A stretch of 64,000 nucleotides of DNA from contig NZ_CP101153.1 of assembly GCF_024298825.1 (NCBI RefSeq), forward strand, positions 2,976,001 to 3,040,000. The letters run 5' to 3'. Below, piece after piece: positions 20,645-52,724 of this stretch (its first letter is position 1; the number at the start of each line of letters is the position of its first letter). The notes under the pieces were generated by a model. It saw only the letters and a list, made by a program, of their open reading frames with translations. It searched no databases and was not told where the DNA came from. The position numbers and the translations under genes were made by a program. The stretch comes from Haloglomus salinum. Its GTDB lineage: Archaea > Halobacteriota > Halobacteria > Halobacteriales > Haloarculaceae.

Positions 20645-21619
20645 TCACCGGCGGAGCTGCACGAGAGCCTCCCCGTCGGTTTCCGCGACCTCGACCAGCC
20701 CGTCGTCGACGAGGTCGTCGATGAGCCCCCGGAGCCAGTCCTGGCCGTATTCCCCGTCGGGCGCGTAGTCGACGCGCACCCGTGGCCCGAGCCGGTCGAT
20801 CGGCAGCTCCCCGTGTTCCTGTAGCGCGCGCACCACGCGCCCCCGCATCTGCCGACGCGACCCCTCGAACTCCGGCTGGGTCGGCACGTCCGGCGCCGTG
20901 AAGTCGTTGGTCGCGTAGGCGTGGCACCACTCACGCCATGGGCAGCCCGCCGCGTCACACTCCGGGGTCTTCCCGCAGGCGACCCCGCCCAGTTCCATGA
21001 TGGCGTTGTTCCAGACCCGGGACTCGCCGGCAGGCATGAGCGTCCGGGCGACCCGCTCGAAGGTGTCGTCCTCGTCCGGGGTATCGAACGCTCGATGGAG
21101 CACGCGCTTGACGTTCGTATCGACCACCGCATCTCCCTCGTTGAACGCGAACGAGGCGACCGCGTTCGCGGTGTACGGGCCGACGCCCATCAGCTCTTGC
21201 AGGCCCTCGGGCGCCCGGGGGAACTCGCCCGCATCGACGCCGTCCACCTCGCCGTCCACGACCTGTCGGGCGGCCTCGTGGAGGTACTTCGCGCGATTGT
21301 TGTAGCCCAGCGAGTGGTCGGTCCAGAAGCCGACCACGTCGGCGCGGTCGGCATCGGCGAGTGCCTCCACGGTCGGCCACTCGTCGAGGAAGTCGTGCCA
21401 CGCCTCGACCACGCGGTCGAGCTGTGTCTGCTGGCTCATCACCTCCGAGACGAGGATCTCGTAGGGGTCTTGGGTCTCGCGCCAGGGGAACGACCGGTGG
21501 TCGGCCTCGTACCATTCGACGAGCGCCTCGCGAACTGCCTCGACGGCCTCGGGGCCGTCCGGGAGGGCAGGTGCGTCGCCGTCCGCCAGTTCGTCGGGCA
21601 GGGCCCCGGCGTCGGTCAT
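20645..21619 (-). CDS. mutY: A/G-specific adenine DNA glycosylase
   Basis: MutY removes adenine mispaired with 8-oxoguanine. The 324-residue protein shows the catalytic Glu in WRETQDPYEILVSEVMSQQT (in two halves), the helix-hairpin-helix LMGVGPYTANAV, the catalytic Asp in AVVDTNVKR, and four cysteines for a 4Fe-4S cluster. The cysteine spacing is C-x5-C-x4-C-x5-C rather than the textbook C-x6-C-x2-C-x5-C. The C-terminal part after residue 230 is a short winged-helix-like domain instead of the bacterial NUDIX-like domain. The frame is open to 21838, but homology begins at the ATG at 21619. Confidence 0.9.
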   Translation of the reverse strand: MTDAGALPDELADGDAPALPDGPEAVEAVREALVEWYEADHRSFPWRETQDPYEILVSEVMSQQTQLDRVVEAWHDFLDEWPTVEALADADRADVVGFWTDHSLGYNNRAKYLHEAARQVVDGEVDGVDAGEFPRAPEGLQELMGVGPYTANAVASFAFNEGDAVVDTNVKRVLHRAFDTPDEDDTFERVARTLMPAGESRVWNNAIMELGGVACGKTPECDAAGCPWREWCHAYATNDFTAPDVPTQPEFEGSRRQMRGRVVRALQEHGELPIDRLGPRVRVDYAPDGEYGQDWLRGLIDDLVDDGLVEVAETDGEALVQLRR

Positions 21620-21704
21620 CACCCGGAGTCGGGGTGGACGGTACTTTCCGGTGGCGGTTCGTGGCGGCGTCAGGCTGAAGCACCGCCCAGTGTACCGACC
21701 GGAC

Positions 21705-21896
21705 ATGCGAACGACGGCCTGGCTTCTCGGTGTCGGTGTCGTCTGTCTCGTCGCGTCGTGGCCCCTACTCGAGTTCACCGGGAACGCCGCGGGCGGCGTA
21801 CTGCTGGTGCTGGGTTTGCTCCTGCTGGTCGCTGCCATCGCGAACTCCTACCTGAACGACTTCCGCGAGGGCTACCGCTCTGCGGGCGAGGAGTGA
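21705..21896 (+). CDS. Small two-helix membrane protein
   Basis: A 63-residue protein with two hydrophobic stretches (about residues 5-20 and 27-47) separated by a short turn and ending in a charged tail (NDFREGYRSAGEE). The start ATG at 21705 leads straight into the first helix. It is divergent from mutY. Similar small proteins are common in haloarchaea; no function is known to me. Confidence 0.6.
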   Translation: MRTTAWLLGVGVVCLVASWPLLEFTGNAAGGVLLVLGLLLLVAAIANSYLNDFREGYRSAGEE

Positions 21897-22779: not shown

Positions 22780-23445
22780 ATGGGATTCACGGACGAACTC
22801 GAACCCCTCCACGACGAGGTCGTCACCGCCATCGTCGAGCACCCGATGGTCACGGGAATCGGTGACGGGACACTCGATCTCGAGCCGTTCCGGCGCTGGG
22901 TGCGGCAGGACTACGTCTACCTCGTCGAGTACAACCGCGTGTTCGCGCTCGGCGCCGCGAAGGCCCCCGACCTCGCCCGGATGGGTCGGTTCGCGGAGCT
23001 GCTCCACGAGACGCTCCACACGGAGATGGACCTCCACCGGTCGTACGCCGCCGAGTTCGGCATCACGGAGGCGGAACTGGAGGCCACCGACCCCACGCCC
23101 ACGACCCGCGGGTACACGGATTTCCTCGTCCGGGTCGCCGCGCTGGGGACGTTCGGTGACCTCGTCGCCGCGCTGCTCCCGTGCATGTGGGGGTTCAACG
23201 AGACGGCCGAGCGCCTCGCCACCGACGGCCTCCCCGACGAGGAGCGCTACGCCGAGTGGATTCGCACGTACACCAGCGACGAGTTCGCCGACCTCGCGGA
23301 CTGGTGCCGGGAACTGCTCGACGAGGTCGCTGCGGGCGCGCCCGACCGTACTCGCGAGCGCTACCGTGACCTCTTCTACACGTCGGTGCGCTACGAGTAC
23401 CGTTTCTGGGACGCCGCGTATCGCGACGAGGGGTGGGGCGTATGA
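22780..23445 (+). CDS. tenA: TenA family thiaminase II / aminopyrimidine hydrolase (Cys type)
   Basis: TenA hydrolyses aminopyrimidine breakdown products of thiamine so that HMP can be salvaged. This 221-residue protein keeps the family's catalytic set at nearly the same numbers as the Bacillus subtilis enzyme: Asp44, Tyr47, Tyr112, Cys135 (LLPCMW) and Glu206. It is therefore of the TenA_C type. The stop codon overlaps the start of a second TenA-like gene (ATGA), so the two are made together. A palindrome lies just upstream of the promoter. Older annotations as a transcriptional activator come from the Bacillus history of the name. Confidence 0.92.
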   Translation: MGFTDELEPLHDEVVTAIVEHPMVTGIGDGTLDLEPFRRWVRQDYVYLVEYNRVFALGAAKAPDLARMGRFAELLHETLHTEMDLHRSYAAEFGITEAELEATDPTPTTRGYTDFLVRVAALGTFGDLVAALLPCMWGFNETAERLATDGLPDEERYAEWIRTYTSDEFADLADWCRELLDEVAAGAPDRTRERYRDLFYTSVRYEYRFWDAAYRDEGWGV

Positions 23446-24146
23446 GCACTCCCAGCGCCGCGAACGTCCCGGCCAGTTTCGCCGAGAGCGACTTCGACCG
23501 GTACACGGCGTGGCTCCGCGCACGGACAGGCCCGAACTGGTTCGCCGCGACCGAGCACCGGTTCGTCACTGAACTCGCCGCGGGCGAACTGGACGACGCC
23601 ATCTTCCGTCGCTATCTGGTGCAGGACTACGCCTTCGTCGACGCGCTCACGTCGCTGGTCGGCCACGCCGCCGGGCACGCCCCGACCGTCGAGACACGCG
23701 TGGAACTGGCCGACTTCCTCACGACGGTGGGGACCGACGAGGACGAGTTCTTCCGGCGCTCGTTCGACGCGCTGGACGTGCCCGATGCCGACCGGACCGA
23801 CCCGGACCTGTGGGCCGTCACCCGCGCGTTCCAGGACCTGCTCGGCCGCGCGGCCCGCGCGGGCTACGCCGAGTCGCTGGCCGTCCTCGTTCCCGTCGAG
23901 TGGGTGTATCTGGAGTGGGCGACCGCAGCAGCCGAGGAGCCCCGCCCCGACCGCTTCTACCTCGACGAGTGGATCGACCTGCACGCCGTCCCCGCGTTCC
24001 GCGAGTTCGTCGGGTGGATTCGTGAGGAACTGGACGATGTGGGTCCGGCGCTGTCCCCCCGTCGAACGCAGCGCGTCGACCGACTGTTCCGCCGAGCGGT
24101 GGAGCTGGAGGTGGCCTTCTTCGACGGCGCGTATCAGCCCGACTAG
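23442..24146 (+). CDS. TenA family protein lacking the catalytic Cys (TenA_E type)
   Basis: A 234-residue TenA-fold protein. It keeps Asp62 in the VQDYAF motif (matching Asp44 of its neighbour) and the C-terminal acidic motif VELEVAFFDGAY. Where the first protein has Cys135 in LLPCMW, this one reads LVPVEW: the Cys is Val152 and the next residue is Glu153. That is the pattern of TenA_E enzymes, which I recall as acting on formylated or other aminopyrimidine salvage intermediates. The ATG overlaps the upstream stop (ATGA), so coupling is strong. The two proteins may work in sequence or as a heteromer. Confidence 0.85.
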   Translation: MSTPSAANVPASFAESDFDRYTAWLRARTGPNWFAATEHRFVTELAAGELDDAIFRRYLVQDYAFVDALTSLVGHAAGHAPTVETRVELADFLTTVGTDEDEFFRRSFDALDVPDADRTDPDLWAVTRAFQDLLGRAARAGYAESLAVLVPVEWVYLEWATAAAEEPRPDRFYLDEWIDLHAVPAFREFVGWIREELDDVGPALSPRRTQRVDRLFRRAVELEVAFFDGAYQPD

Positions 24147-24729: not shown

Positions 24730-25545
24730 TCAGGCCGCGGCCAGCGCCGAATGCGTGGCGCTGACCAGTTCCTCGATGTCGGCGTCCTGCAATTCCTCGT
24801 CGCCCAGCAGGAGCCGGAGGCGCGGTCGCCCGACGTCGATGGGCACCTTCTCGGTGTCGATGAGGTCGTTCTCCTCGAGTTTCGTCTTCGTCCGCGAGAA
24901 CGTCGCCTTCGAGGCGATACCGATGTCCTCGCCCCACTTGCTGACGTCGTAGAGGAGTTCGCGGTTCTTCGCGGCCACGAGCAGGCTGATGGTCACCTCG
25001 TCCAGCCCCTCGCCGTCGCCGCGGGCGGTCTCCAGCGTCGCGAGGATAGCGTCGAAGTCGTCGGCCGAATCCGGCCCCAGCGATTCGCGTAGCGTCTCGC
25101 GGACGCGGGAGATGGCGGGGGTCCGGAGGTTGTGCGGTTCGGCCGCCTCCCACGCGTCGGCGTACTCCTCGTACGCGCCCTCGATGAACTCCCCGTCGTC
25201 GGTCGCGAGCGCGGCGACCCGGCCGCCACCGGCGACGAGTGCTGCGACGGAGTCCTGGGTCACGAGAAGCGTGTTATCCCCGTTCTGGTACGTCCGGAGC
25301 TCGAGGCGTCCGGCCTCGACGAGGTCGGCGGCACGACTGGCGACGATGAAGTCGTCCAGCACGGCCTTCAGCACGCTCTCGTCCGCGAGGAGGCGGACCG
25401 TCGGCCCACCGTCGGGCGAGAGCACGTCGACGAGTTCTTCGACGGTCTCCGAGGCCGGATTCACGACGAAGACCGACTCGTCGACGTTGTCTAGTGCTTC
25501 CGAGAGTACCTCGGCGATACTGTTCTCGAGTAGATTAGCATCCAT
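24730..25545 (-). CDS. tbsP: TbsP-like (DUF5821) transcriptional regulator
   Basis: A 271-residue regulator. The N-terminal part (residues 1-125) is an alpha-beta domain reminiscent of the TrmB-type effector half, with LLADESVLKAVLDDF. The C-terminal part (about 180-245) is a winged helix: LLVAAKNRELLYDVSKWGEDIGIASKATFSRTKTKLEENDLI in outline, with recognition helix around SKATFSRTKT. This arrangement is what I recall for TbsP, which together with TrmB controls gapII and glycolytic/gluconeogenic genes in Haloferax. A strong TATA (TATATATT, 25573-25580) lies about 31 bases upstream. The name is from memory of the family, not from alignment. Confidence 0.7.
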   Translation of the reverse strand: MDANLLENSIAEVLSEALDNVDESVFVVNPASETVEELVDVLSPDGGPTVRLLADESVLKAVLDDFIVASRAADLVEAGRLELRTYQNGDNTLLVTQDSVAALVAGGGRVAALATDDGEFIEGAYEEYADAWEAAEPHNLRTPAISRVRETLRESLGPDSADDFDAILATLETARGDGEGLDEVTISLLVAAKNRELLYDVSKWGEDIGIASKATFSRTKTKLEENDLIDTEKVPIDVGRPRLRLLLGDEELQDADIEELVSATHSALAAA

Positions 25546-25749: not shown

Positions 25750-27960
25750 CTACGCGTCGTCGGCCGCCAGTTCCGCGGCGAGGTCGGTCGACCAGTGGAG
25801 GCGGCCGTCGTAGCACACCGGAAGGGAGCGGTCCCGGAGCAGGTCCACCGTCTCCCCCTGGCTCAGTTCGACCCTGGCCGGCCGGCCGTCCAGTCGGTCG
25901 CAGCGGCCGAACGGCGAGCGGTGGCTTCGTCCGGTGGCGTCGGCCGAGAGGACCTCCTGGACAACCTCGAACCCGCCCTCGTCCTCGCTCTCGCTCTCGG
26001 AGACGTGCAGCACCGCCGGCGACGCCGCCGGTGCCAGCGCGTACGTGCCGTCGCCGACCACGGCGTAGTCGCTACCCATCAGTATCTGCTGTCGGGCGAG
26101 CGAGAGGGCTCGCTCGAAGCCCACCCCGCGGATGAGCAGGCGGGCGAACGCCGTCCCGACGGTCGCCGCGTGCCGGTCCAGTACCGTCGTCAGCGTCACG
26201 GCGCCCGCCACGCTCCCGCGCTCGACCAGGCGCTGGCCCTGCTGGTACGAACCACAGGCGTTCAGGAAGAACGTCCGCGCCCGGACCGTCTCCAGGTCGG
26301 CCACGTCGAGGTAGCCGTTCCGGCATCGCAGTCCTTCGCGCTCGCAGTGGCCGATGTAGTGGACGAAATCACACGGTTGCTGGAGGAGGTCGGCCAGTGC
26401 GTGCCGGGTGAGCGAGCCGTGGACCGTCACGTCGACCTCCAGGTCGGCCGCCCGGTCGCGGTAGATGTCGGCGACGGCTCGCTCGCCGGTCATATCGGTG
26501 TCGTTGCAGACCACGGCGATATCGAGCGCCCCCTCCCGGTCGCACTGGGCGGCCAGCCGATTCCAGTAGGCGGTGGGCGTCGTCTTGAACGCCTCGATGG
26601 GAGTTCCATCGGCGAGCCAGCCGTGGAGCCGGGCGTTCCGGAGCTCCGGGGCGAGTCGGTCCGCGGTCGCCACGTTGCCGGCCGACCGGGTCGTCCCGTC
26701 GTCATTCGCCGGGGGCGCTGCCCGTCCGGTCACGCCGTCGACGAGCGCCGACCCCGGTCCCCGGTAGAACCCGTCGAGGGCCCGCCGGAGGAGCGAACTG
26801 CCGTCGAGTTCCGACGCGGCGGCCGGGTAGACGAGGCTCAGTCGGTCGAGCAGATGCGGGAGACAGCGGACGGCCCGCGTCCCGCCGTCGACGTACGTCG
26901 CCAGCGGCCAGGCCGGGAGTTCGGCCTCGATGCGCTCGAAGGGCGCCTCGAGGTACGCCGCAAGCCGCTCGGCGGGCGAGCGGGCGCGCACGGTCCCGGG
27001 GTCGAGCCCCACCTGTTCGAGCAGGCCCGTCCCGGCCAGTCGCTCCGCCGGCCGGTCGCGGGCCAGGCAGTCGAGACCGAACACCCGTCGGAGCAGGTCG
27101 GCCACTGCGTCGGCGAACGGCCCGTCCTCGGCCGGGAGCGCGCGGTCGATTCCGGCTCCCGGGGCGCGGAGCCGCGGTCGCGACCGCCCCTCGTCGACTC
27201 GTACCGTCGCCCCGAGGTAGAACGCAAGCGGCGCTGCCAGCGCGCACGTCGTCAGCGACGGCGGGAGCCGGAGTTCGATTCCCGATTCGGGTGTGGCCCG
27301 CTGGACCGCGGCCGGGATGTCGCGCTCGCCGAACGCGACGAGCGGCGGGTGGCCGCGTCGGTCGGGGTGGGAGCGCTCTGGCCCGAGCGTTTCGAGGGCG
27401 GACGAGGCGTGCGTGAGCGCCGTCGCGGCACCCGCGGGCGTGGGCGGGACGGTCACCATCGGCGGGTTCGCGGTTCGCTCGCGGAAGCCGACCGTGACGG
27501 TCGTGGGGGCGTCGAAGCTGACCGTGGCCCTGGGTGTGGACCGGGCGTCGGAACGGGGGCCGGACGGCTCGCCGCCACCCGGGTCGCTCGGTTCCCCGGT
27601 TCCGGCGGCACTGCCCATCCCCGTGCCGCTCCCGTCGGCGAGCGCTGGCGGCTCCACGCGCGCCGGGCCATCGAAGCGGAGCACGGTCTCGACGGGGCCA
27701 CCGCTCGCGACCAGCGCTTCGTCGGCTTCCAGACTGACCGCCCCGGTGGCCGCCCGGGCGCTCGCCGGGGCCTGCACCGAGACGGCCGAGCCGGGGACCG
27801 CGAGGCGTGTGGTCCGTCCGTCGGTCCGTGTATCGACCGGGAGCGGGAGCGACGGGGACGAACCGCTGGGTGCCCCCCGCCACGCGGCCGCAGCGACCCG
27901 GATGGAGCCCTCGCGGCCGTGCGCGACTATCCTCCCCCCCGATGTGGAACACCACACCAT
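25750..27960 (-). CDS. CHAT domain (caspase-like) protein
   Basis: A 736-residue cytoplasmic protein whose C-terminal part (about residues 480-640) is a CHAT domain, a caspase-fold peptidase related to TPR-CHAT/Craspase and to separase. The predicted catalytic dyad is His538 in FVHYIGHC and Cys569 in FFLNACGS, both at the ends of hydrophobic strands as in clan CD peptidases. The N-terminal 450 residues have a beta-rich region (1-170), a Gly/Pro-rich linker (about 110-140) and a helical region with LTTCALAAPLAFYLGA; I recognise no TPR repeats there. The ATG at 27960 is preferred; a TTG ten codons upstream is possible. It is divergent from glyA and 204 bases upstream of the tbsP-like gene. Substrate and trigger are unknown. 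Confidence 0.78.
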   Translation of the reverse strand: MVWCSTSGGRIVAHGREGSIRVAAAAWRGAPSGSSPSLPLPVDTRTDGRTTRLAVPGSAVSVQAPASARAATGAVSLEADEALVASGGPVETVLRFDGPARVEPPALADGSGTGMGSAAGTGEPSDPGGGEPSGPRSDARSTPRATVSFDAPTTVTVGFRERTANPPMVTVPPTPAGAATALTHASSALETLGPERSHPDRRGHPPLVAFGERDIPAAVQRATPESGIELRLPPSLTTCALAAPLAFYLGATVRVDEGRSRPRLRAPGAGIDRALPAEDGPFADAVADLLRRVFGLDCLARDRPAERLAGTGLLEQVGLDPGTVRARSPAERLAAYLEAPFERIEAELPAWPLATYVDGGTRAVRCLPHLLDRLSLVYPAAASELDGSSLLRRALDGFYRGPGSALVDGVTGRAAPPANDDGTTRSAGNVATADRLAPELRNARLHGWLADGTPIEAFKTTPTAYWNRLAAQCDREGALDIAVVCNDTDMTGERAVADIYRDRAADLEVDVTVHGSLTRHALADLLQQPCDFVHYIGHCEREGLRCRNGYLDVADLETVRARTFFLNACGSYQQGQRLVERGSVAGAVTLTTVLDRHAATVGTAFARLLIRGVGFERALSLARQQILMGSDYAVVGDGTYALAPAASPAVLHVSESESEDEGGFEVVQEVLSADATGRSHRSPFGRCDRLDGRPARVELSQGETVDLLRDRSLPVCYDGRLHWSTDLAAELAADDA

Positions 27961-28097
27961 CCGTAGAGCGAATCTCGGGTGCCCGACCAAAGAACTACCG
28001 CCCAGCAGGCCCGGGCCTTTTTATCGCCCGGCCGGGACACCCGCCCGGATTGCCGGAGACGGGAAGCTACTTCCATACCCATCCCCGACGCTCTCGT

Positions 28098-29348
28098 ATG
28101 TACGACCGCGTCCGCGAGACCGACCCGGCAGTGGCCGACGCCCTCGCCGGTGAGGTGGACCGCCAGCGCGAGACCCTCGCGATGATCGCCTCCGAGAACC
28201 ACGTCTCCCCCGCGGTGCTGGAGGCCCAGGGCTCCGCGCTCACCAACAAGTACGCCGAGGGCTACCCCGGCGAGCGCTACTACGCCGGCTGCGAGTACGC
28301 CGACGAGGTCGAGCGTCTCGCCATCGACCGCGCGAAGCAGCTCTGGGGTGCCGAGCACGTCAACGTCCAGCCCCACTCGGGGACGCAGGCCAACATGGGC
28401 GTCTACCTCGCGATGCTGGACCCCGGCGACAAGATCCTCTCGCTGGACCTCAACCACGGCGGGCACCTCTCGCACGGCCACCCGGCCAACTTCACCGGGC
28501 AGACCTACGAGGTCGAGCAGTACGAGGTGAACCCGGAGACGGGCTACATCGACTACGACGACCTCCGCGAGCACGCCGAGCGGTTCGACCCCGACATCGT
28601 CGTCTCGGGCTACTCCGCGTACCCGCGCGAGGTCGAGTTCGAGCGCGTCCAGGCGGCGGCCGACGCCGTCGACGCCTACCACCTCGCCGACATCGCCCAC
28701 ATCACTGGGCTCGTCGCCGCCGGCGAACACCAGTCTCCGGTGGGCGTCGCCGACTTCGTCACCGGCTCGACGCACAAGACCATCCGCGCCGGCCGTGGCG
28801 GCATCATCATGACCGACGAGGAGTACGCGAGCGACATCGACCCGGCCGTCTTCCCCGGCGGGCAGGGTGGCCCGTTGATGCACAACATCGCGGGCAAGGC
28901 CGTCGGCTTCAAGGAGGCGCTCTCGGACGACTTCGAGGCGTACGCCGCACAGGTCGTCGACAACGCGAAGGCGATGGCCGAGGTGTTCGCCGACCACGGT
29001 CTGAAGGTGGTCTCCGGCGGCACGGACACCCATCTCGTCCTCGTCGACCTCCGCGAGTCGCACCCGGACCTCTCCGGCGGTACCGCCGAGGAGGCCATGG
29101 AGGAGACGGGGCTGGTCCTGAACGCCAACACGGTGCCCGACGAGAGCCGCTCCCCGTTCGACCCCTCGGGTATCCGCGTGGGCACGCCCGCGCTCACGAC
29201 CCGCGGGATGGACGAGGACGCCGTTTCAGAGGTCGCACACCTCATCTGCGACGTGCTGGACGACCACGACGACACGGCGACGCTGGACCGCGTCTCCGAG
29301 CAGGTCGAGGCGCTCTGTGCGGACTACCCGCTGTACGAGGACCTGTAG
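28098..29348 (+). CDS. glyA: Serine hydroxymethyltransferase
   Basis: GlyA interconverts serine and glycine while loading a one-carbon unit on tetrahydrofolate, with pyridoxal phosphate as cofactor. The 416-residue protein shows ASENHVSPAVLEAQGS, YAEGYPGERYYAGC, the substrate region NVQPHSGTQAN, the PLP aspartate in HLADIAHI and the PLP lysine in TGSTHKTIRAGRGG. The frame is open for 97 codons upstream but the family starts at the ATG at 28098. A TATA-like CTTTTTATCG at 28017-28026 gives a leader of about 50 bases. folD, the next enzyme in one-carbon flow, is in this window at 60431-61324. Confidence 0.96.
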   Translation: MYDRVRETDPAVADALAGEVDRQRETLAMIASENHVSPAVLEAQGSALTNKYAEGYPGERYYAGCEYADEVERLAIDRAKQLWGAEHVNVQPHSGTQANMGVYLAMLDPGDKILSLDLNHGGHLSHGHPANFTGQTYEVEQYEVNPETGYIDYDDLREHAERFDPDIVVSGYSAYPREVEFERVQAAADAVDAYHLADIAHITGLVAAGEHQSPVGVADFVTGSTHKTIRAGRGGIIMTDEEYASDIDPAVFPGGQGGPLMHNIAGKAVGFKEALSDDFEAYAAQVVDNAKAMAEVFADHGLKVVSGGTDTHLVLVDLRESHPDLSGGTAEEAMEETGLVLNANTVPDESRSPFDPSGIRVGTPALTTRGMDEDAVSEVAHLICDVLDDHDDTATLDRVSEQVEALCADYPLYEDL

Positions 29349-43518: not shown

Positions 43519-44151
43519 ATGTTCGGGCTCCTGCTGCTGTTCGCCCTGCTGCTCTCGCTGGCCGACGCCCTCCTCCTCGTGGTCGTCGCGGGGGAGATCG
43601 GCGCGCTCCCGACGGTCGGACTGGTCGTCCTGACCGCCCTGCTCGGCTCGCTGCTCGTCCGCAGCGAGGGCCGGGCCACGCTCCGCCGCCTCCAGCAGCG
43701 CGCCCAGCAGATGGAGGCCCCGACCGACGAACTGCTGGACGGCGCGCTCATCCTCGCGGGCGGCGCGTTCCTCATCACGCCCGGTCTGCTGACCGACCTG
43801 ACGGGTTTCCTGTTCGTCATCCCGCTCACGCGCTACCCGCTCCGGGTCGCGCTCAAGCGGTGGATCGTCGGCCCGTACATCCGCGAGAAGATGGAGAACG
43901 GTAGCATCAACGTCCAGTTCGGGTCGATAGGCGGTGGCGGCGGCTTCGGGGGTGCGGGGAGTACCGGCGGCGCCGGTGGCGCGGGCGGCCCTGGCTGGCC
44001 GGAGCCCGACGACGGCCCGGGTGGTCGGTCATCCTCCGGCGATGCGGACGATGGAGACGATGTCTACGACCTCGGCGACGATGCCTACGACATCGACGTC
44101 GGGGAGCGCGACGAGGACGACCCGGACCGATCGCAACGGGGCGACCACTGA
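43519..44151 (+). CDS. FxsA family membrane protein
   Basis: A 210-residue protein. Residues 1-120 are an FxsA domain: two N-terminal hydrophobic helices with LLVVVAGEIG, a loop with GRATLRRLQ, and a third membrane stretch with ILAGGAFLITPGLLTDLTG. FxsA of E. coli affects phage T7 exclusion by F plasmids; the role in archaea is unknown. The C-terminal 85 residues are a Gly-rich then Asp-rich low-complexity tail (for example GGAGSTGGAGGAGG). It precedes the DUF4129-type cluster on the same strand. Confidence 0.85.
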   Translation: MFGLLLLFALLLSLADALLLVVVAGEIGALPTVGLVVLTALLGSLLVRSEGRATLRRLQQRAQQMEAPTDELLDGALILAGGAFLITPGLLTDLTGFLFVIPLTRYPLRVALKRWIVGPYIREKMENGSINVQFGSIGGGGGFGGAGSTGGAGGAGGPGWPEPDDGPGGRSSSGDADDGDDVYDLGDDAYDIDVGERDEDDPDRSQRGDH

Positions 44152-44276
44152 CCGGTCGCGCGCCGTTCCGGTGGTCGCAGCACGCGACCCGAACAGGATA
44201 CCGCGTCCCGGTGTCCACAACGCATAAGCGGCCGCCCGGGCACGGTTACCCGAATGGACGCCAGGGGGGTCAGACG

Positions 44277-46409
44277 GTGACCGGAAGCGGCCGCCAGCCG
44301 GGTCGGGCGCTGCTCGCGCTCGTGGCGGCGTTCGGACTCGTGCTCGCGGCGGGTATCCTGCCGATGTTCGGCGCTGCCGCACCGGCCGGTGAGGTGGCCC
44401 GCGAGATCGGCGCCCTCGCCAGCAGCGGCGCCGACGACGCCGACGAGAGCCCGTCCGTGCGCGCACCCGGCGGCTCCGGCGGCTCCGGCGGCGGCCCCGG
44501 TGGGTCCGGCGGTCCGGGACTGGGTGACAGCGGCGTGCTGGGCGGCGACACATCGGCGCCACTCGTCGAGAGCCTGCTGCGTCTCGTCGGTGGTCCGAGC
44601 GGTAGTGGTGGTGGTAGCGGCGGTGGCGTCGGCGCGGGTGGTGGTGGTGGAGCCGGCGGTAGCGGTGGGGGGTCCGGTGGGGGTGGCGGTGGAGGCCTGT
44701 TCGGCGGTGGTGGTGGTGGCGCGGGGGGAAGTGGTGGTGGCGGCGGCAGTGGTGGTAGCGGTGGCGGCGGGCTGTTCGGTGGCCTGTTCGGTGGCGGCGG
44801 TGACGGTGGTTCGAGTAGGTCGGGAGGTCCCGGCGATAACGGCGGCTCGCAGGCCGGCAGTGGCGCCGACGGCGGCTGTCTGTCGTCGGGCGAGTACCGG
44901 CTCTGCTTCGACAGCGAGCTCGCCGCCGGGAGCGAGACGACGGTGCGGGTCACGCGCGGCGGCGAGCCGGCGTCCGGTGTCGTCGTCACGTTCGACGGCG
45001 AGGCGGTCGGCCGGACGGACGCCGACGGGGAGGTCACCGCCACCGTCCCGTACGTGCGCCAGCTCTCGGTCGGCGTGCGCGCCCCGGCGAGTGCAATCCA
45101 GCCGGTCGCGGACCGGCAGTACTCGCTCGCACAGCCCGACGACGGGGCGGTCACCGTGACGGTCGACAGCGACCTGCGCATCGAGGTGGCGGACGACCCC
45201 GACCCCGGCGGCACGGTGGGCATCCGGACGCTGGTCGGTGACCGACCGGTGCCGGACGCGACCGTCCGGGTCGACGGGGAGACGGTCGGGCGGACGGACC
45301 GCGCGGGGCGCCTGCAGGTCCCGCTGCCGGTCGCGGAGACGGCGACGGTCGCGGCCGAGCGTGGCGACCTCGCGGCGTCGCGGAGCCTCACGCTCGCGCG
45401 GGTCGAAGTCGCGCTGGGCGCGGGGCTCGTGCCCGTCGCGGTTCCCGGACAGCCGACGACCGTCACGGTCACCGACGGCGGCGAGCCGGTGACGAACGCG
45501 AGCGTCGCGGTCGCCGGCGGTGCGACCGGGCGGACGGACGCGAACGGCACCGTCCGGGCGACGTTGCCGCTCGCACCGACGACGGACGTGACGGTCACGA
45601 CGGCGGCGGGGCTGACGGTCACCCGGTCGAAGGCCATCTTCGTCGGGCCGCTGGTCGCGCTGTTGCTCCTGCTGGGCCTGCTCGGCGCGGTCGGCTACGT
45701 CTACCGGCAGTCCGAGGTGACCGGTCGCGGGCTGCTGGCGCAGGCCCGGGCGACGCTGTCGGCGCTCGCCGCGGACCTGCTGTCGGCGCTGGTCGGGCTG
45801 TCGAGCGGCATCGAGGGGGTCCTGTCCGACCTGCGCGAGGAGCTGCGAGGGGCCATCGCCGCCGTCTCGGCGCCGGACGTGTCGGTGCGTGCGTTCGTCC
45901 GCGAGCGGCTGGCCGCGCTACGGGCTGCCGTCCGCGGTGCGCTCGGTGCGCCGCTGGCCCGGTTCCGGGACCGGGGTGGGACTGACACCGACACGGGCAC
46001 CGCCACGGCGGCGGCCGCGCCGGACCGCGCCGACCCGCGCGAGCGCATCGAGCGGCTCTGGGCGCGGTTCGTCCGGCGGGTCGGGCTCACGCGGGCGCGG
46101 ACGCGGACGCCTGGCGAGGTCGCGGGCCGGGGCGTCTCACGCGGGCTCCCGGCCGAGTCGGTGGAGCGCCTGACCGACGCCTTCCGCGTCGTCGAGTACA
46201 GCGATGCCGACCCCGCGGCCCACGTCGAGGCCGCGACGGACGCGGCCGGGGAACTGGACCTCGACGGGGACGCGGCGGCCGACGAGACGGACGGAGCGGG
46301 GTCCGTCGACGGAACAGACAGCGACGGCCTGCCCGGCGAGGAGGATGCCGACGAGACAGCAACAGCGCCCGACACGAACGACGTCACCACGGAGGGCGAG
46401 TCCCGATGA
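44277..46409 (+). CDS. DUF4129-like membrane protein with Gly-rich linker
   Basis: A 710-residue protein. It has an N-terminal hydrophobic helix (about 8-30), a very long Gly/Ser-rich segment (about 75-200, with GGGGLFGG repeats), three Ig-like/carboxypeptidase-regulatory-type beta repeats (each with GRTDADG or similar, about 220-460) probably outside the cell, a membrane helix (about 467-487), and a cytoplasmic tail with a DUF4129-type motif around GRGVSRGLPAESVERLTDAF (residues 610-640). A GTG at 44277 with an upstream purine-rich AGGGGGG fits; another GTG at 44211 is in frame. The next gene overlaps by 4 bases. DUF4129 is usually found with transglutaminase, DUF58 and MoxR. Confidence 0.75.
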   Translation: MTGSGRQPGRALLALVAAFGLVLAAGILPMFGAAAPAGEVAREIGALASSGADDADESPSVRAPGGSGGSGGGPGGSGGPGLGDSGVLGGDTSAPLVESLLRLVGGPSGSGGGSGGGVGAGGGGGAGGSGGGSGGGGGGGLFGGGGGGAGGSGGGGGSGGSGGGGLFGGLFGGGGDGGSSRSGGPGDNGGSQAGSGADGGCLSSGEYRLCFDSELAAGSETTVRVTRGGEPASGVVVTFDGEAVGRTDADGEVTATVPYVRQLSVGVRAPASAIQPVADRQYSLAQPDDGAVTVTVDSDLRIEVADDPDPGGTVGIRTLVGDRPVPDATVRVDGETVGRTDRAGRLQVPLPVAETATVAAERGDLAASRSLTLARVEVALGAGLVPVAVPGQPTTVTVTDGGEPVTNASVAVAGGATGRTDANGTVRATLPLAPTTDVTVTTAAGLTVTRSKAIFVGPLVALLLLLGLLGAVGYVYRQSEVTGRGLLAQARATLSALAADLLSALVGLSSGIEGVLSDLREELRGAIAAVSAPDVSVRAFVRERLAALRAAVRGALGAPLARFRDRGGTDTDTGTATAAAAPDRADPRERIERLWARFVRRVGLTRARTRTPGEVAGRGVSRGLPAESVERLTDAFRVVEYSDADPAAHVEAATDAAGELDLDGDAAADETDGAGSVDGTDSDGLPGEEDADETATAPDTNDVTTEGESR

Positions 46410-47095
46410 GCGACCGCGACGACGTGCGCCTCCGGAACTCGGTCCTCGGCATCGGTAGCCTGCTGGCGGTCCTCCTCGCGGCGGTGGCGGTGCTGGAACC
46501 GGGTGCGGTCCCGCTGCCGCCGCCGGTCCGGGCGGTACTGACGACGCTGCCGCCGGGCGTGGTGCTCGCGGTGCTCGCGTTCGTCGGGGTCGTCCTGCTA
46601 CTGGTCCGGTCGCGGGGGTCGCGGGCCGCCCCGCCGGAGCCGCTGGTCGAGCGCGAGGAGCCGACCGCCCGCGCGACGGAGCTGGGCAGCGAGTTCGACG
46701 CCCGGCTGGCGACGGCGACCGACCTCGACGCCGACAGGGCGCGCCGCCTCACCGCCCGCGAGTCGGTCGAGGCGACCGTCCGCGATATCGCCGTCGAGGC
46801 GTACGCACTGGACGCCGACGTGGACCACGAGGCCGCGGCCCGGGCCGTCGAGACCGGCGCCTGGACCGAGGACCGTCGGGCGAGCGCCCTCGTGGGCGGG
46901 CCCGAGGCGCCGAGTCCCTCGCGACTCCGGTGGCTGCTCGACCTGCTGCTGACCGGCAGCGCCTACCAGCGCCGCGTCCGCCACGCGGTCGCCGAGGTCG
47001 ACCGATTACTGGTCGGGGACCCTTCGGACAGCAGCGACGATACCGGGGGAGCGACCGACGCCGACGGAGCCGGAGACGGAGGTGTGTCCGCGTGA
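46406..47095 (+). CDS. Membrane protein of the DUF58/MoxR cluster
   Basis: A 229-residue protein with two hydrophobic helices (about 11-30 and 46-66) and a cytoplasmic acidic domain with ARRLTARESVEATVRDIAVEAY and LLTGSAYQRRVRHAVAEVDRLL. It overlaps the previous gene by ATGA and the next by GTGA, so it is part of one coupled cluster. It looks like the short membrane protein that I recall in haloarchaeal DUF58 clusters; it has no known activity. Confidence 0.75.
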   Translation: MSDRDDVRLRNSVLGIGSLLAVLLAAVAVLEPGAVPLPPPVRAVLTTLPPGVVLAVLAFVGVVLLLVRSRGSRAAPPEPLVEREEPTARATELGSEFDARLATATDLDADRARRLTARESVEATVRDIAVEAYALDADVDHEAAARAVETGAWTEDRRASALVGGPEAPSPSRLRWLLDLLLTGSAYQRRVRHAVAEVDRLLVGDPSDSSDDTGGATDADGAGDGGVSA

Positions 47096-48450
47096 GTGCC
47101 GGCCGACTGCGACCCGGGCTGCTGGCCGCGCTCGGCGCCGGCGTGCTCGGGCTGGCTACGGGTGAGCCGCTGTTCCTGTTCCTCGGACTCGTCCCACTCG
47201 CGTACGGCCTCTTCGGCTATCTCAGCGGCGCGCCGCCGGCGACAATTGCGGTCGAGCGGGCCGTCAGCGACACGGAGCCACGCCCTGGCGACACCGTGAC
47301 CGTCACGCTCACCGTCGAGAACGAGGGTGACCGACCGCTCGCCGACGTTCGGGTGGCCGACGACCCGCCCGGTGGCATCCCCGTCGATGGGCCGACACAG
47401 CTCGCGACGGCGCTCCGCCCGGGCGAGACGACGAGCCTGACGTACGAGATGAGTCTTCCCCGCGGCACGTTCGAGTTCGGCGAGGTCACGGCCCGGAGCC
47501 GGAGCCTCGCGGGCGCGGTCGTCGAGGAGACGGCGGTCGAGGCCGCGGGCGACGGGCTGGTGACCTGTCAGACGCTGCTCGACGCGGTGCCGCTGCAGGA
47601 CCACACCATCCAGTTCGTCGGCCGGACGCCGACCGATACGGGCGGGAGCGGGGTCGAGTTCTACGCCACCCGCGACTACCACCGCGGCGACCCGGTCGGG
47701 CGCATCGACTGGAACCGCTACGCCCGGACGGGGGAGCTGACGACCGTCGAGCTGCGCGAGGAGCGCGCGATGACCGTCGTCTTCCTCGTCGACGACCGTG
47801 CGGGCGTCCAGCGGTCGGTCCCCGGCTACGGCCCCGACTCGCTGGACCTCGCGACCTACGCGGTCTCGCGGGCGCTGCCCACGCTGCTGGACGAGAACCA
47901 CCGCGTCGGCGTCGGCCTGCTGAGCCGCATCGCCGACGACGGGGGGTTCGTCGAACCCGGTGGCGGCGAGGCGGTCCGGGCGGCCAGCGAGGCGACGCTC
48001 CGCGACGCCGGCGAGGACCGGGCTCGCACGGACGGCGGTGACGCGGCCGCGGCCGCCGATACGGCCACCACCTCGGATGGCTCGTCGGATGCCGACCGGG
48101 AGTCGGCGTCCGTCGGCCGGCGGAACGGGCTCGCGGTCGGGCGGCGGCTGGCCGAGCGGCTGCCGCCGCGGGCGCAGGTGGTCTGCTGTACGCCCCTGAC
48201 CGACGACCTCCCCGCGGGGCTCGCGGACGCGCTCGTCCAGCGGGGGTACGCCCTGACCGTCCTGTCGCCGGATATGCGCACCGCCGGCGATGCCGAGCCC
48301 ACGCTCGGCCGGGAGGTGGCCGCACTCCAGCGCGAGGCTCGCCGCCGTCGACTCACCCGGCGCGCCGTGCCGGTCGTGGACTGGTCGCTGGACGCGCCGC
48401 TGGCGTTCGCGCTCGCGGCGGTGTTCGACTCGTGGGGGCGGTCGCTGTGA
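47092..48450 (+). CDS. DUF58 domain protein
   Basis: A 452-residue protein. Two hydrophobic helices at the N-terminus (about 5-45) are followed by a beta-sandwich repeat region (about 50-140, with VTLTVENEGDRPL) and a DUF58 domain with the signature FYATRDYHRGDPVGRIDWNRYAR in pieces and VFLVDDRA at the start of the vWA-like part. DUF58 proteins are regular partners of MoxR AAA+ ATPases. A Thr/Ala/Asp-rich insert occurs at about 310-340. It starts with GTG overlapping the previous stop (GTGA) and overlaps the next gene in the same way. Confidence 0.88.
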   Translation: MSAGRLRPGLLAALGAGVLGLATGEPLFLFLGLVPLAYGLFGYLSGAPPATIAVERAVSDTEPRPGDTVTVTLTVENEGDRPLADVRVADDPPGGIPVDGPTQLATALRPGETTSLTYEMSLPRGTFEFGEVTARSRSLAGAVVEETAVEAAGDGLVTCQTLLDAVPLQDHTIQFVGRTPTDTGGSGVEFYATRDYHRGDPVGRIDWNRYARTGELTTVELREERAMTVVFLVDDRAGVQRSVPGYGPDSLDLATYAVSRALPTLLDENHRVGVGLLSRIADDGGFVEPGGGEAVRAASEATLRDAGEDRARTDGGDAAAAADTATTSDGSSDADRESASVGRRNGLAVGRRLAERLPPRAQVVCCTPLTDDLPAGLADALVQRGYALTVLSPDMRTAGDAEPTLGREVAALQREARRRRLTRRAVPVVDWSLDAPLAFALAAVFDSWGRSL

Positions 48451-50039
48451 GCACGTCCCCGCTCTCGACGGCGGCGACGCCCGGCCGGCGCGAGCGACTC
48501 CGGCAGTGGGTCGGCGGCCTCCGTCAGCGACTCGTCCGAATCCGTCCGGCATCGGTCGCTGGCGGTGTCGTCGCGTTCGTGGTGGCGCTGCTGGTGGGCC
48601 GTCTGGTGGTCGGACTCGGTTCCACCGCGCAGGCGCTACTGGCCGGTATCGTTCTCGCCAGCGGCGTGTATGCGCTCAACAGCGACCGACCGCTGGTACA
48701 GATGGGTGGTGTGGTGGTGCTGCTTCCGGGCGGACTGCTGGTGACCGCGAGTCTCGGGGGGGCCGCGTCCGTCGCCGGGCAGAGCCTCGCGGGGAGTCTG
48801 ACGGTGCTGGCCGTCGTCGTCTCGGTCGGCACCATCGGGCTGGTGGCGGCACTCTCCGGGACTACCGCCCCGGACGAGGGGCAACTGGGCGTCGCGAACT
48901 CGCGGGCGACCCGGGCGCTACTGGGGCCGCTGGTGCTGCTGGTGGTACTCGTCCTCCCGGACCTCGGACTCGCGGCGCAGCTGGCCGGCGTGGCCGCCGA
49001 CATCGCTGGTGTCGTCCTCGGCCACCTGCTCGCCTCACCCCCCGGCCTCGCGCCGTTCGTCTTCCCGGTGCTGCTGGGGGGCACGGCCGTCCTCTGCCGG
49101 CGGGCGCTCCAGACGGTCCCGGTCGACACCCTCGTCCAGCCGGACCGCCGTGAGGCGGTCACCCTGCGACTGGCGGCCGTGGAGCGGGCGCTCTCGCGGA
49201 CGGCGCTCGTCGCCGTCGGACTCCTGTTCGCACTCGGGGTCCTGAGCGCCGTCGGCGGGTCGCCGGACCTCACCGGCCTTCGGGCAGCCCTTCCGCCCGC
49301 ACTCGCCGGCATCGTTGCGGGTGTCGTCGGCTCGACGCTGCTGCGGATGGCGCTCCTGGCACTCGCTGCCGGAGGGTTCGTCGTGACCGAGGCCTACCGG
49401 CTCGTCGCACTCGTCCGGGGAGCCAGCCCGCAATCGCTGGCCCGCCGGTTCGCACCGCCGCTGGGGGGACTGCTCGCGGCCGCGGTGGTGGCGGGGCTGC
49501 TCACCGCCTCCGGCGTCGCCGGGGCGACGCGCCAGCGCCTCCTGGCGGCCGTGAACGCCTCTCTCGTCGACCTGCTCGCCGGCTTCGGGCCGTACGTACT
49601 GAGTGTCGGCATCGCGGGGCTGGTGCTGCTGGCGGCGGTGAGTGCCCTGCGGACGCTGGGTGTGGTGACCTGGCTGGTCGCGCCGCCACGGGCCGTCGGC
49701 CCGGCGCTGGCCGGCCTCGCGTCGTTCGTCCTGGCGGCGGTGGCGCTGGTGGTCGGCGCGACGGTGCTGGCCTTCGGTGTCGCCGCGCTCGCGGTCGTCG
49801 CCTGGGATATCGGGGAGTACGGGCGTGGCCTCGGCGAGGAACTGCTGGCCGATGCCCGGACGACGCGGGCGGAGCTGACCCACGCATCGGGCAGTTTCGC
49901 CGTCGGCATCGCGGCGGTGCTGGTCGCGCTGGGACTCGGCGCGCTACTCTCCGGGGCTGCGGCCATCCCGTCGACGGTCGCGCTGGCGGCGCTGGTGCTG
50001 GCCGTCGGGGCCGCGACGCTACTGCTCTACAGCCTGTGA
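48447..50039 (+). CDS. Polytopic membrane protein of the DUF58/MoxR cluster
   Basis: A 530-residue protein with about twelve to fourteen hydrophobic helices and little else; the N-terminal 30 residues are basic and cytoplasmic. No catalytic motif can be seen. A GTG start overlaps the DUF58 stop (GTGA). It is the last gene of the coupled cluster and its end faces the moxR gene, 28 bases away. I recall such proteins as members of haloarchaeal DUF7519-type families but am not sure of the number. Confidence 0.75.
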   Translation: MSTSPLSTAATPGRRERLRQWVGGLRQRLVRIRPASVAGGVVAFVVALLVGRLVVGLGSTAQALLAGIVLASGVYALNSDRPLVQMGGVVVLLPGGLLVTASLGGAASVAGQSLAGSLTVLAVVVSVGTIGLVAALSGTTAPDEGQLGVANSRATRALLGPLVLLVVLVLPDLGLAAQLAGVAADIAGVVLGHLLASPPGLAPFVFPVLLGGTAVLCRRALQTVPVDTLVQPDRREAVTLRLAAVERALSRTALVAVGLLFALGVLSAVGGSPDLTGLRAALPPALAGIVAGVVGSTLLRMALLALAAGGFVVTEAYRLVALVRGASPQSLARRFAPPLGGLLAAAVVAGLLTASGVAGATRQRLLAAVNASLVDLLAGFGPYVLSVGIAGLVLLAAVSALRTLGVVTWLVAPPRAVGPALAGLASFVLAAVALVVGATVLAFGVAALAVVAWDIGEYGRGLGEELLADARTTRAELTHASGSFAVGIAAVLVALGLGALLSGAAAIPSTVALAALVLAVGAATLLLYSL

Positions 50040-50067
50040 CCGGTGGCGGGTGTGGCCGTCGGCGCCC

Positions 50068-51024
50068 TCAGAGGTCGTCCATCGCCGGGACGGGAACCCG
50101 GTCCAGCACGTCCTCGACGACCGCCCGCTTCTCGATGTCCCGGACCTGTGCCTCGCCCGTGAGGACGAGCCGGTGGGTCAACACCGGGTAGACGACCGCC
50201 CGAACGTCGTCCGGCGCGACGAACGAGCGCCCCTCGAGGACGGCCCGGGCGCGCGCGGCCTCGAACAGGCGCTGGACCCCACGCGGCGAGACGCCGACCT
50301 CGACGCGGCTGTCCTGCCGTGTCTCCCGGCCCAGGTCGACGACGTACTCGCGGATGTCGTCGTGGGTCTCGACCGTCTCGGGGACGGCCTGCAGCTCCGT
50401 GACCGTCTCGCGGTCGGTGACACGCTCGGCGCTGGGTGCCTGCGTCGTCCGGCTCGCGCGGCGGTCGATGAGTTCGAGTTCGCCGTCGCGGTCCGGGTAG
50501 CCCATCGAGGTCTTGACGGTGAAGCGGTCGACCTGGGCCTCCGGCAGCCTGAAGGTGCCCTCCTGCTCGACGGGGTTCTGCGTCGCGATGACGAAGAACG
50601 GCTCCGGCAGGTCGCGCGTCTCCCCGTCGACCGACACCTGCCCCTCCTCCATCGCTTCGAGCAGCGCGGCCTGGGTCTTCGGCGGCGCACGATTGATCTC
50701 GTCGGCGAGCACGACGTTCGCGAAGACGGGCCCCTCCGAGAACTCGAAGGCCCCCTCGTGTTCGTTGTAGACGTGCGTGCCCGTGATGTCGGAGGGGAGC
50801 AGGTCCGGCGTGAACTGGATGCGCGTGAACTCCAGTCCCAGCGCTGTCGCCAGCGTCCGCGCGGTCAGCGTCTTGCCGGTCCCGGGCACGTCCTCCAGCA
50901 GCACGTGCCCGTCGGCGAGCACGCCCGTCAGCACGGTCTCGAAGAACGAACGCTCCCCGATGACCGTCCCCGTCACTGCCTCCAGCACCGACTCGCACTG
51001 GCCGGCGGCCGCCTCGATATCCAT
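50068..51024 (-). CDS. MoxR family AAA+ ATPase
   Basis: A 318-residue AAA+ chaperone of the MoxR group. Walker A is DVPGTGKTLTA, Walker B VVLADEINRAPP, sensor 1 VIATQNPVEQEGTF, and the arginine finger region is in LPEAQVDRF. The C-terminal lid has GVSPRGVQRLFEAARA. MoxR ATPases act on DUF58/vWA partners, which are encoded next door but on the opposite, convergent strand. An upstream in-frame ATG (51084) would add 20 residues; the ATG at 51024 (MDIEAAAGQ) matches the family start. Confidence 0.92.
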   Translation of the reverse strand: MDIEAAAGQCESVLEAVTGTVIGERSFFETVLTGVLADGHVLLEDVPGTGKTLTARTLATALGLEFTRIQFTPDLLPSDITGTHVYNEHEGAFEFSEGPVFANVVLADEINRAPPKTQAALLEAMEEGQVSVDGETRDLPEPFFVIATQNPVEQEGTFRLPEAQVDRFTVKTSMGYPDRDGELELIDRRASRTTQAPSAERVTDRETVTELQAVPETVETHDDIREYVVDLGRETRQDSRVEVGVSPRGVQRLFEAARARAVLEGRSFVAPDDVRAVVYPVLTHRLVLTGEAQVRDIEKRAVVEDVLDRVPVPAMDDL

Positions 51025-51144
51025 GCCGGAGTCTCCCGTGGGCCGCCGAAATAACTTCCGTGAACCGCCGTCGGCGGCGGCCATGACAACTCCCCGGAAC
51101 GGGGAGGGGGTTTTAGTCGTCCCCGCACTGCTGGCATCATCCCT

Positions 51145-51873
51145 ATGGGGGATTCTCCCGTGGACGGTGGTATGACCGACGAGAGTGCGGACGACCGATT
51201 CCCGGCGGACGGCTGGCACAGCAAGGCCGAGCCACGGGTCGAGAGCGACGGTGGGGTCGCCCGCCCGGACGCCGAACTCGGTCGCGGCACCGAACTCCCT
51301 CCCGCCGCCGACGCCGGGGGCACCGAGGTGGGCGCCGATATCGACGCCGAGGCCGTCGAGCCGACGGACGCGTCACTGCTGAGCCCCCACGGCCGCTCCC
51401 TGCTCGCCTACGCGGGCAGCGTCGTCGCCGTGTTCGTGGCCGCGGGCGTCGGCCTCGGCCTCGGCTCGAACTTCATCCTGGGCTTCCTCATCGAGCAGTT
51501 CGTCGAACCGGGTGCCAGCCCGACCGACAGCACGCTCGTCAGCATCATGCTGCTGCACAACGTCATCACGCCGTTCCTCGTGGGCCCGCTGATGGCCATC
51601 GGTGCGGGCGCGCTGCTGGGCCGGGCGCTCCCGGACCGTCCCCTCACCGCGACGGCCGTCGGCGGGACGGCGTCGCTGGCCGGGTTCTACCTGATGACCG
51701 GCCTCACGCTGTTCCTCACCATCAACGTCATCGCGCAGTACTCCACCGGCGGCGGTGGTGGCAGTGGCGCCCTCGACCAGGCGGCGCTCGGCAAGCAGGT
51801 CATCGAGAGCGGCATCCCGGCGGCCGTCGTCGGCGCGGCGGGCGCCTACATCGGTTCGTACATCTCCGACTGA
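51145..51873 (+). CDS. Haloarchaeal membrane protein with acidic N-terminus
   Basis: A 242-residue protein. Residues 1-80 are acidic and disordered. Four to five hydrophobic helices follow from about residue 88, with a GSNFILGFLIEQF region, and the last ones end in AGAYIGSYISD. A Gly/Ser-rich loop (GGGGGSG) precedes the last helix. A TATA-like GGTTTTAGTC lies about 32 bases before the ATG at 51145, which supports it over a later ATG at 51172. Function unknown; it is divergent from moxR. Confidence 0.7.
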   Translation: MGDSPVDGGMTDESADDRFPADGWHSKAEPRVESDGGVARPDAELGRGTELPPAADAGGTEVGADIDAEAVEPTDASLLSPHGRSLLAYAGSVVAVFVAAGVGLGLGSNFILGFLIEQFVEPGASPTDSTLVSIMLLHNVITPFLVGPLMAIGAGALLGRALPDRPLTATAVGGTASLAGFYLMTGLTLFLTINVIAQYSTGGGGGSGALDQAALGKQVIESGIPAAVVGAAGAYIGSYISD

Positions 51874-51986
51874 GGCGGTCCCCCGTTTCTGACGACACGG
51901 GGCGACGGTTCCGGTTCCTCGCTTGCGGGTTCGTCCACCGCCATCGGCCGGCGGACTTTTGCACACCCCTGCCGTAGCGTGGTCCG

Positions 51987-52724
51987 ATGGAGGAGTCCCC
52001 GTTCACCATCGACCCACACGTCCACTCGGAGGGCTCCTACGACGGCCGCGAACCCGTCGACCTGCTCCTCGAACACGCCGCGGACATCGACCTCGATGCC
52101 ATCGTCGTCACCGACCACGATACCATCGAGGCGTCGCTCCGGGCGGCGCGACTGGCACCCGAGTACGGCCTCGTGGGCGTCCCCGGCGTGGAGGTGTCGA
52201 CGGCGGACGGCCACCTGCTCGCCATCGGCGTCGAGGAGTGCCCCGCACCCGGGCGGCCGCTCCCGGAGACGGTCGCACGGGTGCGGGACCTGGGTGGCGT
52301 GGCGGTCGTCCCGCACCCGTTCCAGCGCACGCGTCACGGCGTCCCACGCCGCCGGCTCGCGGGGGTCGACGTCGACGGCATCGAGACGTACAACGCCTGG
52401 CTGTTCACGGGCTACCGGAACCGCCGGGCGGCCGCGTTCGCGCGTCGCTACGGCCACGCCGACCTCGCGGGCAGCGACGCCCACCGCGTCGAGACCGTCG
52501 GCCGCGCGTTCACCGCGCTGGACCTGCCGACCGACGGGAGCGCGACGGCCGACGACGTGGTGGCGGCCATCCGGCGCGGCGACACCGCGGTCCACGGCCG
52601 TCGCGCGCCGCTGCACCGCTGTGCCGGCCACTACGTCAAGGGCGCCGCCCGGAAATCCGGCTACGCGGCCCGGAAGGCGCCCAGCGTCGCGGGTGCGGTC
52701 GCGTCGGCGGTCTTCCCGTTCTGA
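51987..52724 (+). CDS. PHP domain metal-dependent phosphoesterase
   Basis: A 245-residue PHP-fold hydrolase. Metal ligands are seen in DPHVHSEGSYDG (His11, His13), TDHDT (about residues 42-46), GVEVSTADGHLLAIG, PHPF (about 108-111) and LAGSDAHR (about 163-170). Stand-alone PHP proteins hydrolyse nucleotide or sugar phosphates, or short RNA; the substrate cannot be told. The C-terminal 40 residues are basic and helical. It lies between a membrane protein gene and hsp20. Confidence 0.88.
   Translation: MEESPFTIDPHVHSEGSYDGREPVDLLLEHAADIDLDAIVVTDHDTIEASLRAARLAPEYGLVGVPGVEVSTADGHLLAIGVEECPAPGRPLPETVARVRDLGGVAVVPHPFQRTRHGVPRRRLAGVDVDGIETYNAWLFTGYRNRRAAAFARRYGHADLAGSDAHRVETVGRAFTALDLPTDGSATADDVVAAIRRGDTAVHGRRAPLHRCAGHYVKGAARKSGYAARKAPSVAGAVASAVFPF

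Follow-up and report, generated by a model that had tools for sequence, protein, structure and literature searches.

The window, that is, the whole stretch of 64,000 nucleotides of Haloglomus salinum DNA analyzed here, encodes on its minus strand a predicted CHAT-type clan CD cysteine peptidase flanked by tbsP and glyA. The genes, domains and codons considered in this work are as follows.

25750..27960, minus strand: gene for a predicted CHAT-type cysteine peptidase of clan CD, 736 aa (open reading frame, orthologue alignment, class-wide family)
27445..27960, minus strand: N-terminal beta-sandwich-like domain, residues 1-172 (AlphaFold2 model, strands 3-171)
26761..27444, minus strand: second domain, alpha/beta, residues 173-400 (pLDDT mostly >90; conservation)
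26044..26526, minus strand: predicted caspase-fold catalytic core, about residues 479-639 (DSSP of the AlphaFold2 model; Foldseek)
26347..26349, minus strand: predicted catalytic His538 codon (His in 148/150 distinct family sequences)
26323..26325, minus strand: Cys546 codon, on the hairpin that follows His538, the predicted catalytic His (Cys in 149/149 sequences where aligned)
26254..26256, minus strand: predicted catalytic Cys569 codon (Cys in 148/150 distinct family sequences)
24730..25545, minus strand: tbsP, downstream same-strand neighbor across a 204-bp gap (Pfam TbsP_N, HTH_TbsP_C)
28098..29348, plus strand: glyA, divergent neighbor across a 137-bp gap (recognized from its sequence and used as tblastn query)
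C1:1745153-1747948, elsewhere in the same genome: paralogue with its upstream DUF7504 gene (loci L171 and L223)

The reading frame begins with an ATG at 27960 and its stop ends at 25750. A longer version starting with TTG at 27990 is possible; the ATG was preferred because the orthologues align from it, with the consensus 'MxxW...'. Numbered from this ATG, the dyad residues are exactly H538 (FVHYIGHC) and C569 (FFLNACGS), so that the start, the length and the dyad positions proposed in the first-pass annotation all match our reading of the frame. The closest named orthologue, from Haloglomus halophilum, is 92% identical. Relatives are encoded in 130 of 146 genomes of the same taxonomic family and in 365 of the 391 Halobacteria genomes, and these counts, together with the retention of the dyad in all but two of the distinct sequences, establish that the gene is not a chance reading frame. 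An antisense frame on the plus strand (25795-27966, 723 aa) was without support and was rejected as the GC-rich mirror of the gene. Most of the window has a GC content of about 69%, rising to 73-75% across 44001-52000, with raised skew at 44-48 kb.

The family is poorly captured by existing models. Pfam CHAT (PF12770) matched the window protein at 17 bits (E 0.004, residues 497-631), below its curated cut-off of 24 bits, and matched 21 of 67 orthologues at E 0.01, the best at 1.9e-5. Up to E = 10 CHAT was the only Pfam family matched by the protein, with neither C14 (caspase/metacaspase) nor TPR among the matches. Across whole genomes the same model found only the paralogue in the window genome, below cut-off, and among 14 control genomes, H. 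volcanii included, it matched in Methanosarcina alone. Searching the PDB by sequence, either with the protein alone or with the family profile, yielded chance matches only and no relatives, and no transmembrane or signal segment was seen. Nearly all of the 25 plasmid records with relatives are annotated as 'hypothetical protein', one being called 'caspase family' and one 'CHAT domain-containing', and a search of one literature collection for CHAT proteins in haloarchaea or Haloferax returned none. Thus, the haloarchaeal family escapes the Pfam CHAT model and is almost undescribed.

The gene is set among metabolic genes. Its ten neighboring genes include no defence gene and no CRISPR family, and PADLOC gave no match for the protein itself; the sole PADLOC match nearby, a MutY-type DNA glycosylase gene at 20645-21838, was taken as a family cross-match. 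The earlier statement that no defence gene is adjacent thus agrees with both lines of evidence. Two TenA-like (thiaminase II family) genes in tandem, with a small HalX-like gene after them, lie on the plus strand at 22780-24146, as judged by sequence alone.

The placement beside tbsP and glyA, which the first-pass annotation had pointed out, holds for both genes and well beyond this genome. Of 80 named loci of the clade to which the window protein belongs (window clade), 79 have tbsP next to the CHAT gene, and glyA was found by tblastn in 77. In the 78 loci that were measured tbsP lies downstream on the same strand in every case and on the opposite strand in none. Since the gap between them ranges from 82 to 847 bp (median 380), the two genes do not form a tight operon. 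Among 22 genomes chosen for having no obvious window-clade copy, tbsP was present in 20 and glyA stood directly beside it in 14, as judged in short flanks; one of the remaining loci without direct glyA-tbsP adjacency (L149) carries the CHAT gene after all. As glyA and tbsP are neighbors also where the CHAT gene is absent, the locus is no proof of a link to TbsP; synteny as functional proof is weakened and the neighborhood is less telling than it had seemed. The CHAT gene thus either entered an older glyA-tbsP neighborhood or was lost from it.

Predicted catalytic core, N-terminal half and known relatives

An AlphaFold2 model of the window protein built with 66 orthologues reached a pLDDT of 83 and a pTM of 0.79. 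By DSSP its core runs, from residue 479, in the order beta-alpha-beta-alpha-beta-His-hairpin-beta-Cys-alpha-beta-alpha-alpha-beta, with His538 at the end of strand 530-540 and Cys569 at the end of strand 561-569. In the clan CD core, His and Cys are located at the ends of neighboring strands of the central sheet, on loops L3 and L4 (PMC4357240), and in the model the core of the window protein corresponds to this arrangement. The full model was compared with the PDB by Foldseek, where SAVED-CHAT was the best match (E 7.1e-6) followed by separase (E 2.5e-5), both with probability 1.00, and then by gingipain R and caspases with probability near 1. Judged by the order of secondary structure and by the matches to separase, gingipain R and caspases, the predicted dyad is placed as in clan CD. 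In the model the fold is thus of the caspase type and the nearest solved structure is that of a CHAT protein (8tl0), and the His and Cys stand in an HxxGH ... NAC context, as in CHAT proteins.

The dyad is retained across two clades though most alignment columns vary. Its two exceptions among the 150 distinct sequences are one truncated at the end of its locus and one, L131, with Arg and Asp at the dyad positions. L131 (genome G476, family f19), which comes from outside Halobacteria, is a divergent relative and by its sequence likely a pseudoprotease. Within the window clade H538, C539, C546, C569 and S571 are invariant (99/99); outside it C546 is retained and C539 is replaced mostly by Ile, Thr or Val. 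The invariant C546 could have a part in redox or metal control, which is a guess. Taken together, model topology, Foldseek matches and conservation uphold the earlier view of a protease fold with a complete dyad, and make protease activity plausible.

The N-terminal half has a different character. The model divides it into the beta-sandwich-like domain, with a low-confidence insert at residues 109-139, and the alpha/beta domain, in which 'RSxP..R.HPP' (R196-P206), W351 and 'LPFLLD' are near-invariant. Residues 1-400 modelled alone gave a pLDDT of 87, and with this model no PDB entry was matched under E 0.03 (best E 0.033). A known sensor was sought and rejected, as Pfam offered none and the GST-like and mannosidase fold matches superpose poorly. 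A separase-like pseudo-protease arisen by internal duplication was likewise rejected, since comparing the profiles of the second and the catalytic domain gave nothing. The first-pass description of an N-terminal part that is neither TPR nor any known sensor is therefore borne out, by Pfam and by the modelled folds for the former and by the lack of a confident match among solved structures for the latter.

Four known systems bear comparison with the window protein. SAVED-CHAT (PDB 8tl0) shares its His/Cys dyad and caspase-type core; in contrast, no SAVED domain was found in the window protein, its gene has no CRISPR neighbor, and its N-terminal half is unmatched to 8tl0. Separases of Chaetomium, yeast and human (5fby, 5u1t, 9hn0) share the catalytic fold, with E values from 2.5e-5 to 9e-4, and have it likewise preceded by a big N-terminal portion, but the alpha-solenoid of separase (C50) is absent from the model and identity is only 10-15%. 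By motif, the window protein is without the Trp of 'LW' as found in separase and CHAT proteins, and 'VTD' reads 'VLD/VLN' there. The position so aligned with the Asp of 'VTD' is Asn in 56 and Asp in 43 sequences of the window clade. TPR-CHAT (Csx29, Craspase) has the CHAT-type dyad in common, whereas the window protein lacks TPR, an association with Cas7-11 and a linked CRISPR effector; Csx29 was not among the 50 Foldseek matches listed.

Prokaryotic caspase-fold proteases are best known from defence. The cyanobacterial HetF, a putative CHAT protease that is required for heterocysts to develop and that acts in cell division (PMC8406250), has a developmental and cell-division role instead, and the earlier statement that bacterial CHAT proteases work in defence is thus too narrow. 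HetF differs in being cyanobacterial and in having its CHAT domain within aa 1-555, and is set beside the window protein by description only.

Distribution of the family and its second clade

In a tree of 115 rows the family separates into the window clade, almost all of whose members have tbsP next to them, and a second clade, with four sequences of family f19 outside both. These come from the only four genomes with relatives outside Halobacteria in a sample of the wider phylum, and no relative was found in viral contigs. The window clade forms one group whose branches are largely ordered by haloarchaeal taxonomic families, and by its sequences looks vertically inherited. An exact DNA signature around Cys569 (FFLNACG..) placed it in at least 237 of the 391 class genomes, the reversed control pattern giving 0 matches. 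The window clade is absent from many genomes and is therefore not essential in general, and genomes without it carry the second clade instead. In genus g66 (G245, G284, G418) there are 5-6 window-clade active-site signatures per genome, nearly all other genomes having at most one, which would represent an expansion in one genus.

Immediately upstream of the second family member of the window genome, at C1:1745777-1747948, lies a DUF7504 gene, and a MinD/ParA-type ATPase gene follows downstream. DUF7504 is itself a large paralogous family, with 14 copies in the window genome and 1-15 in 40 other genomes searched. Similarity of TbsP to DUF7504, by which both clades would have had the same type of partner, was looked for and not found. 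Among six plasmid-borne members that were read, DUF7504 adjoins five, in places fused to a HalOD1 output domain. Genus g40, which is probably Haloferax, as one of its plasmid contigs resembles Haloferax plasmids most, has exactly one family member per genome (15/15), with DUF7504 directly upstream in all 15. Across 18 second-clade loci DUF7504 made up 7 of 83 neighbor proteins, and the pairing is therefore limited to part of the clade. Genes for PAS proteins, kinases and response regulators are frequent near these loci as well, and the gene context as a whole suggests signal control of the second clade, which bears on the window gene only indirectly. Where DUF7504 and CHAT genes are paired, the arrangement resembles an operon of two genes, one for a signalling protein and one for a caspase-fold protease.

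Proposed function and alternatives

We infer that the window protein, placed in the caspase/separase/CHAT superfamily, is probably a cysteine endopeptidase of the cytoplasm that is regulated by a signal and has a core role outside defence. His538 and Cys569, at neighboring strand ends, would hydrolyse peptide bonds of specific substrate proteins, and the two N-terminal domains would restrain the enzyme and either receive a signal or recruit the substrate. In known relatives this task is performed by TPR, SAVED or solenoid domains. Inherited with the chromosome as a core gene, it would most likely act in ordinary physiology or in adaptation to stress rather than in defence against phages, with TbsP as one candidate partner. 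The non-defence role is argued from the fixed metabolic neighborhood, the pattern of descent, the near-universal family and the absence of a PADLOC match, and the near-universal, vertically inherited distribution fits the housekeeping reading first offered for this gene.

Among the alternatives, it is unlikely that the protein is a conserved non-peptidase which uses fold and dyad for binding or other chemistry, as a scaffold, a ligase or a thiol sensor through C546 and C569. Such a role would account for C546 being as invariant as the dyad and for C539 being invariant in the window clade, and the Asn or Asp at the 'VTD' Asp position means that the pocket is not plainly of the Arg-specific type. 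However, His and Cys are strictly conserved together, along with the NAC.S motif, as a peptidase function predicts, and pseudoenzymes usually lose one of the dyad residues.

We consider it rather improbable that the protein acts in defence or regulated death, cleaving host proteins upon infection in the manner of Craspase or SAVED-CHAT. SAVED-CHAT is indeed the closest solved structure, and relatives of the second clade occur also on plasmids, some beside signalling-type genes; against this, the window gene has metabolic genes and no defence gene around it, PADLOC is without a match, and a fixed locus in a near-universal family is unlike the patchy occurrence of defence genes. A dedicated partnership with TbsP, in which the protein cleaves TbsP, is controlled by it or is transcribed under it, with a tie to carbon and glycine metabolism, is very doubtful, as the constant downstream position of tbsP is countered by the wide gap, by a glyA-tbsP adjacency that occurs also where the gene is absent, so that its position may be simply inherited, and by the location of the second clade elsewhere.

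With the regulated endopeptidase as the preferred reading, the family also bears on an observation made in haloarchaeal extracts. Seth-Pasricha et al. reported that caspase-4-like activity dominates proteolysis in extracts of Haloferax volcanii, that archaeal genomes are without clear caspase homologues and the responsible protein is still to be found, and that the same kind of activity occurs in Pyrococcus and Sulfolobus (PMC3615174). The suggestion that the window protein is of a kind not described in archaea thus needs amending, since caspase-like activity had been described biochemically in haloarchaea without a gene. To this strong, gene-less activity the haloarchaeal family adds a clan CD candidate. 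It would be a long shot that both clades are the source of the dominant haloarchaeal caspase-like activity, as a core non-defence system in which DUF7504 and HalOD1 control the second clade. We know of no member of the family in Pyrococcus or Sulfolobus, which counts against the link.

The window CHAT protein represents a new architecture in a superfamily that is already known. What is surprising about it is the core, non-defence distribution through a whole archaeal class, combined with an N-terminal half without solved relatives. The caspase-like activity of Haloferax has been without a gene for more than a decade (PMC3615174), and the genus that is probably Haloferax has a single member of this family per genome.
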